Positions 6,647 through 34,273 of a DNA stretch of 34,273 nucleotides are shown piece after piece. A program made the position numbers and the translations under genes. The stretch is from positions 17,707-51,979 of the IMG/VR virus record IMGVR_UViG_3300029319_006393, one strand, 5' to 3'. The stretch is from a virus. The first letter of the stretch is position 1. Each line of letters begins with the position of its first letter. The notes under the pieces were generated by a model. That model was not told where the DNA came from and did no database searches. It worked only from the letters and a program-made list of their open reading frames with translations.

Positions 6647-6838
6647 ATGGCTAAAGTTCATGTTGAAAGATTAACTGATGACTGTATTCGTGTAAGGGTG
6701 GGGGATCTCACTGTTTATATAGATGACAGCACAGATGAGCAGATTATAAATGTTTGGGACTCTGAGGGCTCTAAGCTGAAATCTGAATGGTGGAAGACTG
6801 AAGGCGAGCTGGGTAGTCTAAGCGTTAAGAAAGCTTAA
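6647..6838 (+). CDS. 63-residue hypothetical protein, last gene of the plus-strand unit
   Basis: Encodes MAKVHVERLTDDCIRVRVGDL followed by TVYIDDSTDEQIINVWDSEG, a strand-rich small protein. The ATG at 6647 follows GGGGA; an earlier in-frame start at 6623 lies inside the previous gene. Its TAA shares the TTAA at 6835-6838 with the stop of the endolysin gene on the other strand, so the two units run directly into each other. Confidence 0.65.
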   Translation: MAKVHVERLTDDCIRVRVGDLTVYIDDSTDEQIINVWDSEGSKLKSEWWKTEGELGSLSVKKA

Positions 6839-7368
6839 ATATGATCCCAAGGCTTTGATTGAAAGAGTAGGGCTTCTGCGTTGCGTCTACGGACAAGACC
6901 ATCAAGCACTACTTTTTCGCCATTGACCGTAGCCTTATTCCATCTGCGTATTTGGTCTGGAGCCTCATCATATTTTTCAGCCAGCAAAACTTTCCTTAAA
7001 GTTGAGGTTGCAAGGTTGTTTCTACCAACATTAAAGGTAAAAGCTACTAAGGATGAAAATTGATCTTCATTTAGATCGACTGTAATAAGCTCTCTAACGG
7101 CTTGTTCAAATTCTTGGAGGTCTAGCTCAAGCATATGTTCAGCGTGCTCCTGAGACCAGCTCTGTCCCTCTACGACAGTTTTAGTGTGTCCGTAGCCCTG
7201 AGTGAGAACATTAGCACTACATCGATACGGCTCAAGCTTACAGCCTTCAAATTTTTTGATTAATTCTATTCCTTCTGGGGTGATGTTCACGCCAAAATTA
7301 CTTTTTTGATTTTTTTCTTCAACGATCACGCCATGGTTTTTAATTTGATCTTTTTTCTTGAAAAACAT
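6835..7368 (-). CDS. Endolysin, GH24 muramidase (T4-lysozyme type)
   Basis: 177-aa lysozyme cleaving the MurNAc-GlcNAc bond of peptidoglycan at lysis. Family signs: IELIKKFEGCKLEPYRC with catalytic Glu41, LTQGYGHT (Thr56), the QFSSLVAFTFNVG helix, and the C-terminal GLVRRRNAEALLF block. Cys50 stands where T4 lysozyme has Asp20, a natural variation known in the family and reported to keep activity in T4. The ATG at 7368 directly follows the previous stop; a TTG start at 7383 is possible. The N-terminal ~20 residues are basic with no signal peptide or SAR helix, so export through a holin is expected. It is the last gene of its operon. Confidence 0.93.
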   Translation of the reverse strand: MFFKKKDQIKNHGVIVEEKNQKSNFGVNITPEGIELIKKFEGCKLEPYRCSANVLTQGYGHTKTVVEGQSWSQEHAEHMLELDLQEFEQAVRELITVDLNEDQFSSLVAFTFNVGRNNLATSTLRKVLLAEKYDEAPDQIRRWNKATVNGEKVVLDGLVRRRNAEALLFQSKPWDHI

Positions 7369-7369
7369 T

Positions 7370-7576
7370 TTAGATATACTCAATTTCTTTTAAGGCATCT
7401 TCAAAATTATTGCCTAGTTTGTGCCATTCAAGATCACCAGCAAGCTTGTAAATCCAACCACTATTCTTGTTGCGTTTACCATATGGGTTCTTGGGTATCC
7501 ATTTCAGCACGACTCTATCATGTCCTTTTTGTTCAAACCTAGTCATAAGTTCTTGTTTCTTGCTTAACACTTCCAC
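7370..7576 (-). CDS. Hypothetical protein upstream of the endolysin
   Basis: 68 aa if the first GTG (7576) is used, 66 if the second GTG (7570); both lie just after AAGGAG inside the end of the preceding gene. Contains MTRFEQKGHDRVVLKWIPK and a C-terminal acidic helix (NNFEDALKEIEYI). Its stop sits one base before the endolysin start, so it is probably co-translated. No family recognised. Confidence 0.6.
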   Translation of the reverse strand: MEVLSKKQELMTRFEQKGHDRVVLKWIPKNPYGKRNKNSGWIYKLAGDLEWHKLGNNFEDALKEIEYI

Positions 7577-7860
7577 CTTCTCCTTGCTTGTCTTAATCTT
7601 GAGTTAGGGTTCTTTGCCGCCTTGGGAAACTTCTTCATCTGTCCTAGTGATCTAGCACAAAATGACTTACGCCTTTTTGCGGCTTTGCTTCCTTTTTTTA
7701 CTTTCCCCGTTACAGCCGTCTTGAGCTTAGATCCTGGATTTGCCCTACGATAAGCACGCACACCTTTAGCAGTCATGCCAGCACCAGACTTAGTGGGTCT
7801 GTAGTTAGCACCCTTGCCTTTAGTGGTTCTAGGTATAGATTTAGCTTTTTTTCTTGCCAC
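7564..7860 (-). CDS. Small highly basic protein (DUF6321-like)
   Basis: 98-aa Lys/Arg/Gly-rich protein with the conserved-looking core MTAKGVRAYRRANPGSKLKTAV followed by RRKSFCARSLGQMK, matching what I recall of the DUF6321 family in marine phages and other viruses. No enzyme motif. Its charge suggests binding to DNA, RNA or another polyanion, which is inference. It overlaps its upstream neighbour by 20 nt and contains the start of the next gene in its last codons. Confidence 0.75.
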   Translation of the reverse strand: MARKKAKSIPRTTKGKGANYRPTKSGAGMTAKGVRAYRRANPGSKLKTAVTGKVKKGSKAAKRRKSFCARSLGQMKKFPKAAKNPNSRLRQARRRWKC

Positions 7861-8146
7861 GGGTTTTCCTTTTCTTTCTAATTATAGTCCGAACATTTGT
7901 TGGTTTTCCACCTACACCTTGCTTAACGGCTCTCTTTCTTTTTACAGCAGAGCGTATTTGTGCTTTGGTCATAGAGTTTGCTTTGGATCTTGGGACACAT
8001 TTTGGATATCCTCTTTTGCTTTTAGATGCAGACTTTCTACCGCAAGGTTGCCATCTTCCCTTCTTTTTGGGTGCAGATATGTCTACCCAGTCTCCTTTTT
8101 TTCCTTTCCCGAACCAAGCGGTGAGACCTCCAGTGGGTTTAGCCAT
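7841..8146 (-). CDS. Small basic protein (DUF5872-like)
   Basis: 101-aa basic protein beginning MAKPTGGLTAWFGKGKKGDWVDI, then CGRKSASKSKRGYPKCVPRSKA and a Lys/Arg tail. The GLTAWF...WVDI opening and the Cys...YPKC core resemble the family I recall as DUF5872, frequent in marine viruses; function unknown. The paired Cys residues (near 37 and 52) could bind metal. It overlaps the 37-aa Trp-rich gene by 8 nt at its start and the next basic gene by 20 nt at its end. Confidence 0.75.
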   Translation of the reverse strand: MAKPTGGLTAWFGKGKKGDWVDISAPKKKGRWQPCGRKSASKSKRGYPKCVPRSKANSMTKAQIRSAVKRKRAVKQGVGGKPTNVRTIIRKKRKTRGKKKS

Positions 8147-8252
8147 CTTTCTTTAGTAGACCGACAAGCCAATGCCAAACAGCTACAAGCTTATGCCATA
8201 CCCATAAACAAGCTGATTTAATCCAGCCCCATAATGTGTGTAAGTATTTCAT
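8139..8252 (-). CDS. 37-residue Trp-repeat membrane peptide
   Basis: Micro-gene whose ATG overlaps the upstream stop as ATGA and whose TAA lies just inside the next gene, filling the only apparent gap in this operon. The peptide contains three consecutive 9-residue units (LWGWIKSAC, LWVWHKLVA, VWHWLVGLL) that put WxW at residues 8/10, 17/19 and 26/28. The first two units are also similar as DNA. It would form one hydrophobic, Trp-lined helix with Lys12, His20 and Lys21 inside and a KKDG tail. Membrane insertion is likely; a holin or pore role near the endolysin is inference. Confidence 0.6.
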   Translation of the reverse strand: MKYLHTLWGWIKSACLWVWHKLVAVWHWLVGLLKKDG

Positions 8253-8428
8253 CTGTATCTTCCCCCCCTTTTTTTGTATTCACGAACTAACCATGCGTTT
8301 GCGTAAGCAGATGGATAGACCTTAAATTTTCTTTTGGCAGCCGCTTTGACCCTAGAATATAGTGCCTTGTTGACTACATTACTGGGTATCTTTGACTTAG
8401 TAGATTTCTTTTTACTTTTTCTTGCCAC
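8249..8428 (-). CDS. Small basic phage protein with YPSAYANAW motif
   Basis: 59 aa. The GTG at 8428 is chosen over an upstream ATG because AGGAG lies 8 nt before it. The N terminus is a Lys/Ser tract; the C-terminal half KRKFKVYPSAYANAWLVREYKKRGG resembles a motif recurring in small marine-phage proteins. Function unknown. Its stop is coupled (ATGA) to the Trp-repeat peptide. Confidence 0.7.
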   Translation of the reverse strand: MARKSKKKSTKSKIPSNVVNKALYSRVKAAAKRKFKVYPSAYANAWLVREYKKRGGRYR

Positions 8429-8534
8429 GCTTTTGACTCCTAAGCTTTTTGAAATCAGCACCAGTAATTTTGTTAAAAGGCGGTGCCATTTTAGCTATGA
8501 ATCGTTGTTTTTTTGTAAGTTTATGACCTGGCAT
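8412..8534 (-). CDS. 40-residue basic protein (MPGHKLTKKQ family)
   Basis: Starts MPGHKLTKKQRFIAKMAPPF, then NKITGADFKKLRS and a GKKK end. The combination of MPGH and NKITGADFK looks like a conserved small family that I recall from marine phages, without known function. AGGAAG lies just upstream. It overlaps the next gene by 17 nt. Confidence 0.65.
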   Translation of the reverse strand: MPGHKLTKKQRFIAKMAPPFNKITGADFKKLRSQKRGKKK

Positions 8535-32628: not shown

Positions 32629-33051
32629 CTAACCCTCTGTTGGTGTGAATATACCTGCCTCTATAAGTTTCTCCCTATTGAGCATATGTGCTGCTTCTAT
32701 ATCATCTTTTGATTGACCACTGTAAGCTACAGCAAGGTTTTGGTTTATCATCTCTTGGTTGAGATCTAAGTCATCTGCAACAATAACCCCTAACACTCTG
32801 CCAAACTTACCTTTTTTATCTAACTTAGTTTGTACTTTTACAAAGTCAGCCTGCTCAATTTTTTCAGACAAAAACGCTGAAGCTAGCTTGCCTCTAGCTT
32901 TTTCATCTAAATCTCTGGTTCTAGATTCAGGAGTATCCACTCCAAAAAGTCTAATTCTAGACTTGAATACAATGTCGAAACCTAAATCTATTTCAGCATC
33001 TACTGTATCTCCGTCAACAACTCTGGTAACGGTGCATCTATATTCATACAT
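32629..33051 (-). CDS. Staphylococcal-nuclease-like (TNase) protein
   Basis: 140 aa. CTVTRVVDGDTVDAEIDLGF, RIRLFGVDTPESR and KFGRVLGVIV carry all counterparts of SNase active-site residues: D15, R34, D39, E42 and R85. Length is that of the minimal nuclease domain, and there is no signal peptide. A Ca2+-dependent nuclease in the late structural unit could degrade host DNA or act in the virion; neither is shown. Starts 3 nt after a 50-aa gene. Confidence 0.88.
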   Translation of the reverse strand: MYEYRCTVTRVVDGDTVDAEIDLGFDIVFKSRIRLFGVDTPESRTRDLDEKARGKLASAFLSEKIEQADFVKVQTKLDKKGKFGRVLGVIVADDLDLNQEMINQNLAVAYSGQSKDDIEAAHMLNREKLIEAGIFTPTEG

Positions 33052-33054
33052 TAT

Positions 33055-33207
33055 TTATTTCTTTTTTCTTTTTTTAACAGTTTTGTAAGCTTCATTCTTA
33101 GCAGTTGTAGGATCGTCAGCAATGTATCTGCCTTTCTTATCCCTTGTTCTAACCACTTCAGATTCAACCAAGCCTATTTTTGCTAACATATTACCAAACC
33201 AGCTCAT
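33055..33207 (-). CDS. 50-residue conserved-looking small protein
   Basis: MSWFGNMLAKIGLVESEVVR continues with TRDKKGRYIADDPTTAKNEA and a KKRKKK end. AAGGAGG precedes the ATG, which overlaps the holin stop by 4 nt (ATGA). The amphipathic MSWF start and the GRYIADDPTT-NEA core look like a small family that I recall from marine phages; function unknown. Confidence 0.7.
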   Translation of the reverse strand: MSWFGNMLAKIGLVESEVVRTRDKKGRYIADDPTTAKNEAYKTVKKRKKK

Positions 33208-33686
33208 TTGTCCTCCTTAGATTGAGAAGCTCCAAAATAAAAAGATATCACAGCACTAGCCAATCCACCTAAATATCCTAGAACTAAATTAATTAAAGCT
33301 TCACTATTTTGTTCTGGTGGCTGCAAGGTTACTAAAAATATGTAACCAAGAAAGCCTCCTAGTGTAGCTATGCCCATAATTCTTGTTGTCCAATCTTTTG
33401 AAAAATGTTTTCTTGCATCTTGTTTCTCTTGTGCCTCTAGCTTGTAAACATCAACATCAAGCTCTTTCATTTGTTTTTCAAAATCTTGTTCTGCTTTTTT
33501 AAGTTGTAACATTTGTTCTGGTGTTGCTTCAGCAATAGCTTTTTCTATAGACTTAGGGTTGTTTGGTACGCCAAGTGTTTCAGCTATTAGATTTGCTGCC
33601 ATGCCACCCATAGGTCCACCGATTGCTGTGCCTAGTGTTGGAGCTACTGCACCAACTACATTTTTAAGTAAATTCTTTAATGCCAT
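33204..33686 (-). CDS. Holin, three-TM type (GTA-holin-like)
   Basis: 160 aa resembling the Holin_3TM family (gene-transfer-agent release holin). Gly/Ala-rich opening VVGAVAPTLGTAIGGPMGGM continues AANLIAETLGVP, a soluble charged helix (AIAEATPEQMLQLKKAEQDF) follows, then the two C-terminal membrane helices (about residues 103-121 and 130-151) ending FYFGASQSKEDK. It would form the membrane lesion that lets the cytoplasmic GH24 endolysin reach the wall. It lies between the cyclase and structural genes, far from the endolysin. Confidence 0.82.
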   Translation of the reverse strand: MALKNLLKNVVGAVAPTLGTAIGGPMGGMAANLIAETLGVPNNPKSIEKAIAEATPEQMLQLKKAEQDFEKQMKELDVDVYKLEAQEKQDARKHFSKDWTTRIMGIATLGGFLGYIFLVTLQPPEQNSEALINLVLGYLGGLASAVISFYFGASQSKEDK

Positions 33687-33694
33687 AATTATCC

Positions 33695-34273
33695 TTATAT
33701 TGTATAAATAGCTAAAGGTTTGCTTTTACCCTTAACTTTTATGGGTTTAAGTAATTTTAAACTAAAATCAACACTTTTTGCAGTCTCATGCCCTATCAGT
33801 ATGTCTTCACCAACTTCTTTAGTTGCAGACTCTAATCTTGCTGCAACATTAATTGCATCACCTATACCAGAAAAATCAAACCTAGTATCTGATCCCATGT
33901 TGCCAATAACAGCCTCACCAGAGTTCACGCCTATACCTATAGCTATTGGCTCTGGTAACTCTTTTTGTAATTGTTTGATAGCGGTACGCATATCCTGGGC
34001 ACAGGCTACAGCTCTTTCTTCATGGTTGTCTAAATCTAGCGGTGCGTTAAATATTGCCATACAAGCATCACCTATAAACTTATCTACCATACCTCCATGT
34101 GCTTGTATGCAAGTTACTTGAGCTGTTAGAACTTTATTCATTATCTCTGTTACTTGTTCTGGTTCTAGTTTTTCAGATAGATTTGTAAATCCTCTGACAT
34201 CTGTAAATAAAAATGTGCAATATTTTTTCTCTCCCCCGAGTCTCAGCAGGTCAGGATTGTCTTGTAGTTGTTT
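33695..34273 (-). CDS. Class III nucleotidyl cyclase, catalytic domain (5' end cut by window)
   Basis: At least 192 aa; no start codon occurs before the catalytic motif, so the gene continues beyond the window. Visible: NPDLLRLGGEKKYCTFLFTD (leads into the domain), FTDVRGFTNLSE with metal Asp25, VDKFIGDACMAIFNAP with Lys65 (base selection) and metal Asp69, IGVNSGEAVIGNMG, and FDFSGIGDAINVAARLE with Ser135 where adenylyl cyclases usually have Asp/Thr, and the transition-state pair Asn142/Arg146. All catalytic residues are therefore present; cAMP is the likeliest product. The LGGE lead-in is typical of CHASE2- or HAMP-linked cyclases, so a sensor may precede it. It sits in the late unit before the holin. 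Numbering counts from the cut edge. Confidence 0.9.
   Translation of the reverse strand, partial: KQLQDNPDLLRLGGEKKYCTFLFTDVRGFTNLSEKLEPEQVTEIMNKVLTAQVTCIQAHGGMVDKFIGDACMAIFNAPLDLDNHEERAVACAQDMRTAIKQLQKELPEPIAIGIGVNSGEAVIGNMGSDTRFDFSGIGDAINVAARLESATKEVGEDILIGHETAKSVDFSLKLLKPIKVKGKSKPLAIYTI

Follow-up and report, generated by a model that had tools for sequence, protein, structure and literature searches.

Micropeptides encoded by phages usually escape annotation, and a frame of 37 codons at positions 8139-8252 raises two questions: whether it is a genuine gene, and what a product with three evenly spaced pairs of tryptophan (Trp) would do. The window, a stretch of 34,273 nucleotides analyzed as a whole, is part of a 51,979-base IMG/VR record from a marine virus of bacteria, which belongs to a marine temperate phage group. 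Our preferred reading, to which we assign a probability of about 0.5, is that the frame is a clade-specific, coupled gene for an amphipathic helix lying in the plane of the membrane, most likely as an accessory to lysis.

The micropeptide gene and its neighbors

Translation of the minus strand gave MKYLHTLWGWIKSACLWVWHKLVAVWHWLVGLLKKDG, with Trp at residues 8/10, 17/19, and 26/28, exactly as described in the first-pass annotation of this DNA. The plus strand over 8139-8252 contains many stops, and the micropeptide frame is that of the minus strand. It belongs to the last part of a minus-strand run in which replication genes come first (about 12,063) and the endolysin gene (6835-7383) comes last. 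The features of this part of the run are:

8259-8269, minus strand: SD-like sequence AGGGGGGGAAG, 6 nt 5' of the micropeptide ATG, within the C-terminal codons of the DUF5872 gene; similar form in all carriers
8249-8461, minus strand: upstream gene, DUF5872 (PF19197, E = 1.6e-8), ATGA-coupled to the micropeptide gene
8139-8252, minus strand: micropeptide gene, 37 aa, ATG at 8252-8250 and TAA at 8141-8139; open in all eight haplotypes
7841-8146, minus strand: downstream gene, 101 aa, Lys-rich (phrog_23735); adjoins the DUF5872 gene directly in 65 loci of relatives
7564-7860, minus strand: DUF6321 gene (PF19846); in some carriers an unrelated 83-aa gene takes its place
7370-7576, minus strand: 68-aa gene; in carriers always ahead of the endolysin gene and behind the DUF6321 slot
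6835-7383, minus strand: endolysin, phage lysozyme (PF00959, E = 4e-41), without an N-terminal hydrophobic segment; two alternative types among carriers

The micropeptide ATG shares the tetranucleotide ATGA with the TGA of the DUF5872 gene, and at the other end the TAA and the start of the downstream gene overlap by 8 nt (ATGGCTAA). With the frame open in the window's own genome and in seven further IMG/VR contigs, and with the SD-like sequence ahead of the overlapping ATG, the 37-aa gene and its ATGA coupling were both borne out. The open reading frame is a genuine gene, with translation inferred from sequence.

An endolysin had also been placed in the same operon. This is correct, but three genes, about 0.75 kb, lie between it and the micropeptide. 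The endolysin gene was found downstream of the micropeptide in every carrier with enough sequence. Two endolysin types alternate behind the same 68-aa gene, one in carrier loci L368, L087, L367, and L369 and the other in L366 and L370, and the DUF6321 gene and the unrelated 83-aa gene are swapped between the same two sets of loci. In another locus, L240, the slot before the downstream gene is filled by another small peptide, which carries a DxNxDGxVD motif like that of an EF hand (MIDYIKNKFIQLWNIISGKDKNWDGSVDIKD...); a similar peptide also occurs in L235.

Because the two ends of the record have a direct repeat of 221 nt (97.7% identity) in common, the record suggests a near-complete genome, circularly permuted or circular with slight assembly variation. 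Gene content includes terminase, head-tail adaptor, internal virion protein, tail fiber, DnaB helicase, Erf and RecE-like recombination proteins, and an integrase, and the phage is apparently temperate. The cultured-phage relatives closest to the neighbor at 7841-8146 include Pelagibacter phages. A class III nucleotide cyclase domain (PF00211, E = 8e-14) is encoded at 33695-34273 on the minus strand and runs on across the repeated record ends into L242 (1-900, minus strand); this phage-encoded cyclase apparently has hydrophobic segments ahead of the domain, i.e., it is predicted to be membrane-bound.

Distribution and conservation

Homologues of the micropeptide were detected in seven IMG/VR contigs, 86-100% identical and all in the same slot. 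Together with the window's own copy, these carriers comprise eight nucleotide haplotypes and six protein variants. In all eight known genomes, which form one clade, the frame, the start, the ATGA, and the 8-nt overlap are intact, without stops or indels. Only residues 6, 9, 11, 33, and 34 vary, with largely conservative changes (I/V/L), while residues 12-32 are invariant and show synonymous changes at positions 20, 24, and 30. Pairwise dN/dS values were mostly about 0.2-0.4, with four pairs at dS = 0 and a few near 0.9, the pairs with zero or tiny dS being uninformative. By a rough count, about 8 of 15 inferred changes were nonsynonymous compared with 77% expected (P about 0.04). Conservation is shallow, all carriers being one clade, and some of the Trp conservation is to be expected at the divergence of the carriers, because no synonymous codon for Trp exists. 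RNA structure was rejected as the cause of the conservation (z = 0.36).

To compare the flanks, we collected 91 loci in which the downstream protein was at least 70% identical and the upstream sequence was present. The micropeptide was present in 11 of them, representing the window's own copy and the seven contigs, some of which were counted twice. In 65 of the 80 more distant loci it was absent, and the DUF5872 stop abuts the downstream start as TAATG, at 43 distinct junctions; the other 15 of the 91 loci have other arrangements of the flanking genes. With the flanking genes of these 65 loci adjoining one another without it, a gain of the micropeptide gene in one lineage is the simplest account; coupling to both neighbors was preserved, and sequence comparison shows a gene specific to that lineage, inserted into an operon of coupled genes. 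The first-pass annotation had named relatives lacking the frame but keeping the flanks as evidence against the gene; such relatives are found outside the clade, as these 65 loci, whereas every clade member has an unbroken frame.

Searches beyond the clade gave no relative. Three degenerate DNA scans of IMG/VR with the Trp/His core and one of GTDB genomes returned nothing outside the same clade. The other triple-WxW matches, among those listed, were low-complexity TGG repeats, and loci L557 and L558 are unrelated. Pfam, PHROGs (E ≤ 1), and NCBIfam searches gave no family match, the PDB sequence search gave no match, cultured-phage proteins gave only two chance matches (E = 9), and no description of the micropeptide was found in a literature search. 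The micropeptide is an orphan, by distribution an ordinary phage accessory gene and by design an uncommon one.

Trp order, predicted helix, and proposed membrane placement

The design is unusually regular. Three equally spaced WxW pairs arose in only 6 per 100,000 composition-preserving shuffles (P = 6e-5), and the order of the Trp residues is non-random. Similarity between the first two repeats at the DNA level had also been taken as a sign of duplication. This did not hold: identities between the 27-nt units were 15/27, 12/27, and 9/27, and random synonymous recoding of the micropeptide gave a mean of 14.2 identities for the first pair (P = 0.42; second pair, P = 0.24). Duplication of a 27-nt unit was rejected, as there is no DNA identity beyond that imposed by the amino acids.

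The period of 9 residues equals 2.5 helical turns, so successive pairs alternate sides, and the Trp residues fall into two rows, 8/19/26 and 10/17/28. Each row would be straight over 18 residues because its spacings, 11 + 7 and 7 + 11, add up to five turns. An AlphaFold (AF2) model gave a single helix over residues 2-36 with a mean pLDDT of 87, from a shallow alignment of six near-identical sequences; short Leu/Trp-rich peptides are readily predicted as helical. The hydrophobic moment of the non-Trp residues 2-33 at 100 degrees per residue was significant (P = 0.0008 on the Kyte-Doolittle scale to 0.018 on the Eisenberg scale) and exceeded the moment at all other angles in the tested range of 80 to 180 degrees. 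L4, L7, I11, A14, V18, L22, V25, L29, and L32 form the hydrophobic face and K2, H5, T6, S13, H20, H27, and K34 the polar face, with K21 off the polar face. Relative to the hydrophobic direction, the Trp residues are offset by +53 to +79 and by -101 to -127 degrees, a placement at the borders with P = 0.01. The earlier proposal, a single helix rich in Trp with Lys/His inside it that is probably membrane-active, is supported by the model and by this amphipathicity.

Insertion scales disagree because of the Trp residues. Wimley-White energies were -9 to -12 kcal/mol at the interface and -11.8 kcal/mol in octanol, whereas the biological hydrophobicity scale gave +4.8 kcal/mol for the best 19-mer. 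We infer that an in-plane interfacial helix best reconciles these values, and in the model, with Trp edging both sides of the hydrophobic face, a helix at the membrane surface is a better fit than one spanning it. Antimicrobial and model interfacial Trp-rich peptides also place Trp where the polar and non-polar sides of the helix meet. In mode of action alone, the micropeptide would resemble such amphipathic helical peptides; it differs from them in being encoded in a phage operon, longer, more regular, and of low net charge.

Possible roles of the micropeptide

The suggestion that the micropeptide is a minimal pore or holin was not specifically supported. As a holin or pinholin, its helices would oligomerize across the membrane, and the His/Lys/Ser face would line a pore freeing the endolysin. 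The endolysin in the same operon in all carriers speaks for this, as do the polar stripe of the amphipathic helix and the octanol value, which would permit insertion; holins need not match a particular endolysin, so the exchange of endolysin types would be tolerable. However, holins need at least one transmembrane (TM) segment (PMC7182436), and any such span would enclose K12, K21, H20, and H27 and would face the unfavorable biological-scale energy. A class III holin has one TM helix and a large periplasmic domain (PMC9636201), whereas the micropeptide has 37 aa in total, nearly all of them in the predicted helix, and it matched no holin family in the Pfam, PHROGs, and NCBIfam searches. A pinholin would need a SAR endolysin as partner, but the N-terminus of this endolysin, MSISKMFFKKKDQIKNHG..., has no hydrophobic segment. 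With phage holins such as pinholin S21 and the GTA_holin_3TM family, which includes the ICP1 holin TeaA (PMC7182436), the micropeptide has in common that it is short, predicted to be helical and membrane-directed, and encoded in an endolysin operon; it lacks a confident TM span, a second or third TM segment, a large periplasmic domain, and sequence similarity. The distance of three genes from the endolysin may also count against the holin reading, and a better candidate in the same genome argues against it:

33207-33686, minus strand: 160-aa protein, likely the true holin (phrog_1544), with two C-terminal hydrophobic segments and supporting synteny

The case for this protein is argued from synteny, as its score against GTA_holin_3TM (PF11351; 15.5 bits) is below the gathering score of 24.8; 4 of 20 relatives match PF11351 weakly (best E = 0.022), and its AF2 model is poor (pLDDT 52). 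In 42 of 80 related endolysin loci a homologue lies upstream of the homologous endolysin gene on the same strand, mostly with gaps of -7 to +30 nt and otherwise of 289-506 nt. Homologues occur in 133 cultured phage records, of which a few are annotated as holin and some lie directly beside a DD-peptidase (M15 peptidase). The 160-aa protein is a much better holin candidate than the micropeptide, for which we consider a holin role unlikely. In the window's genome the 160-aa protein and the endolysin are encoded about 26 kb apart; as homologues of the former adjoin endolysins elsewhere, candidate holin and endolysin appear to be split here, which draws attention to this arrangement in marine phages. 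A SNase-like nuclease gene (32629-33051) lies behind the holin candidate.

In our preferred reading, a small gene was acquired between two normally coupled genes, with translational coupling kept on both sides, and the locus would illustrate the insertion of a tiny membrane gene into a coupled operon. Its product would be a single unbroken amphipathic alpha-helix oriented in-plane at the inner membrane of the host, its hydrophobic face edged on either side by three Trp in a row. It may perturb the membrane, depolarizing or thinning it while the endolysin of the same operon accumulates, and the 160-aa protein encoded elsewhere in the genome would act as the main holin; the perturbation step is the weaker part. 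The lysis role is proposed because of operon membership alone, and that the micropeptide is constant while the endolysin type and the DUF6321 gene change neither requires nor excludes it. Of the single roles, that of an accessory to lysis is the likeliest, by a moderate margin only, with an exclusion effector as the alternative. A bolder form, in which one phage clade, with its endolysin in the replication operon and away from the usual holin, acquired a lone helix of 37 residues, striped with Trp in two straight lines, that depolarizes or breaches the inner membrane by itself, seems to us improbable.

A membrane-surface effector apart from lysis, carried as cargo in a replication-lysis operon and serving, for example, to exclude superinfecting phages or to inhibit a membrane protein of the host, is a lesser but real prospect. 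The gain of the gene in one lineage, at a site where accessory genes vary, the integrase, the replication genes upstream in the operon, and the independence from endolysin type are all in its favor, but no similarity to known exclusion proteins was found, and none to a family in Pfam, PHROGs, or NCBIfam. It is hardly probable that the frame is a mere translational bridge, coupling its two neighbors but yielding no product under selection. The start and stop overlaps would suit a bridge, and the sequences are few and their Trp codons have no silent alternatives; yet the neighbors are coupled without the micropeptide in the 65 loci, and dN/dS below 1, the unbroken frame with its I/V/L changes, the significant amphipathic order, and the failure of RNA structure to account for the conservation all argue against it.

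Least probable is descent from a family of peptides of about 40 aa, previously undescribed, in which W10, W17, and KDY are invariant and the C-terminus has a TM helix (L104, L138, L213, L372-L471, and others). Like the micropeptide, these are small predicted membrane peptides of marine phages with an MK/ME start; a gapless match spans M1-W17, including both Trp residues, and among 19,651 short open reading frames the micropeptide ranks just after the true members. The profile match is nevertheless not significant (E = 7-37), the gene neighborhood differs, and the micropeptide lacks both KDY and the clear C-terminal TM helix that follows the N-terminal interfacial part of these peptides, and such descent was rejected. 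In the loci inspected (L104 and L210), the W10/W17/KDY peptide is encoded just upstream of an apparent terminase small subunit gene.
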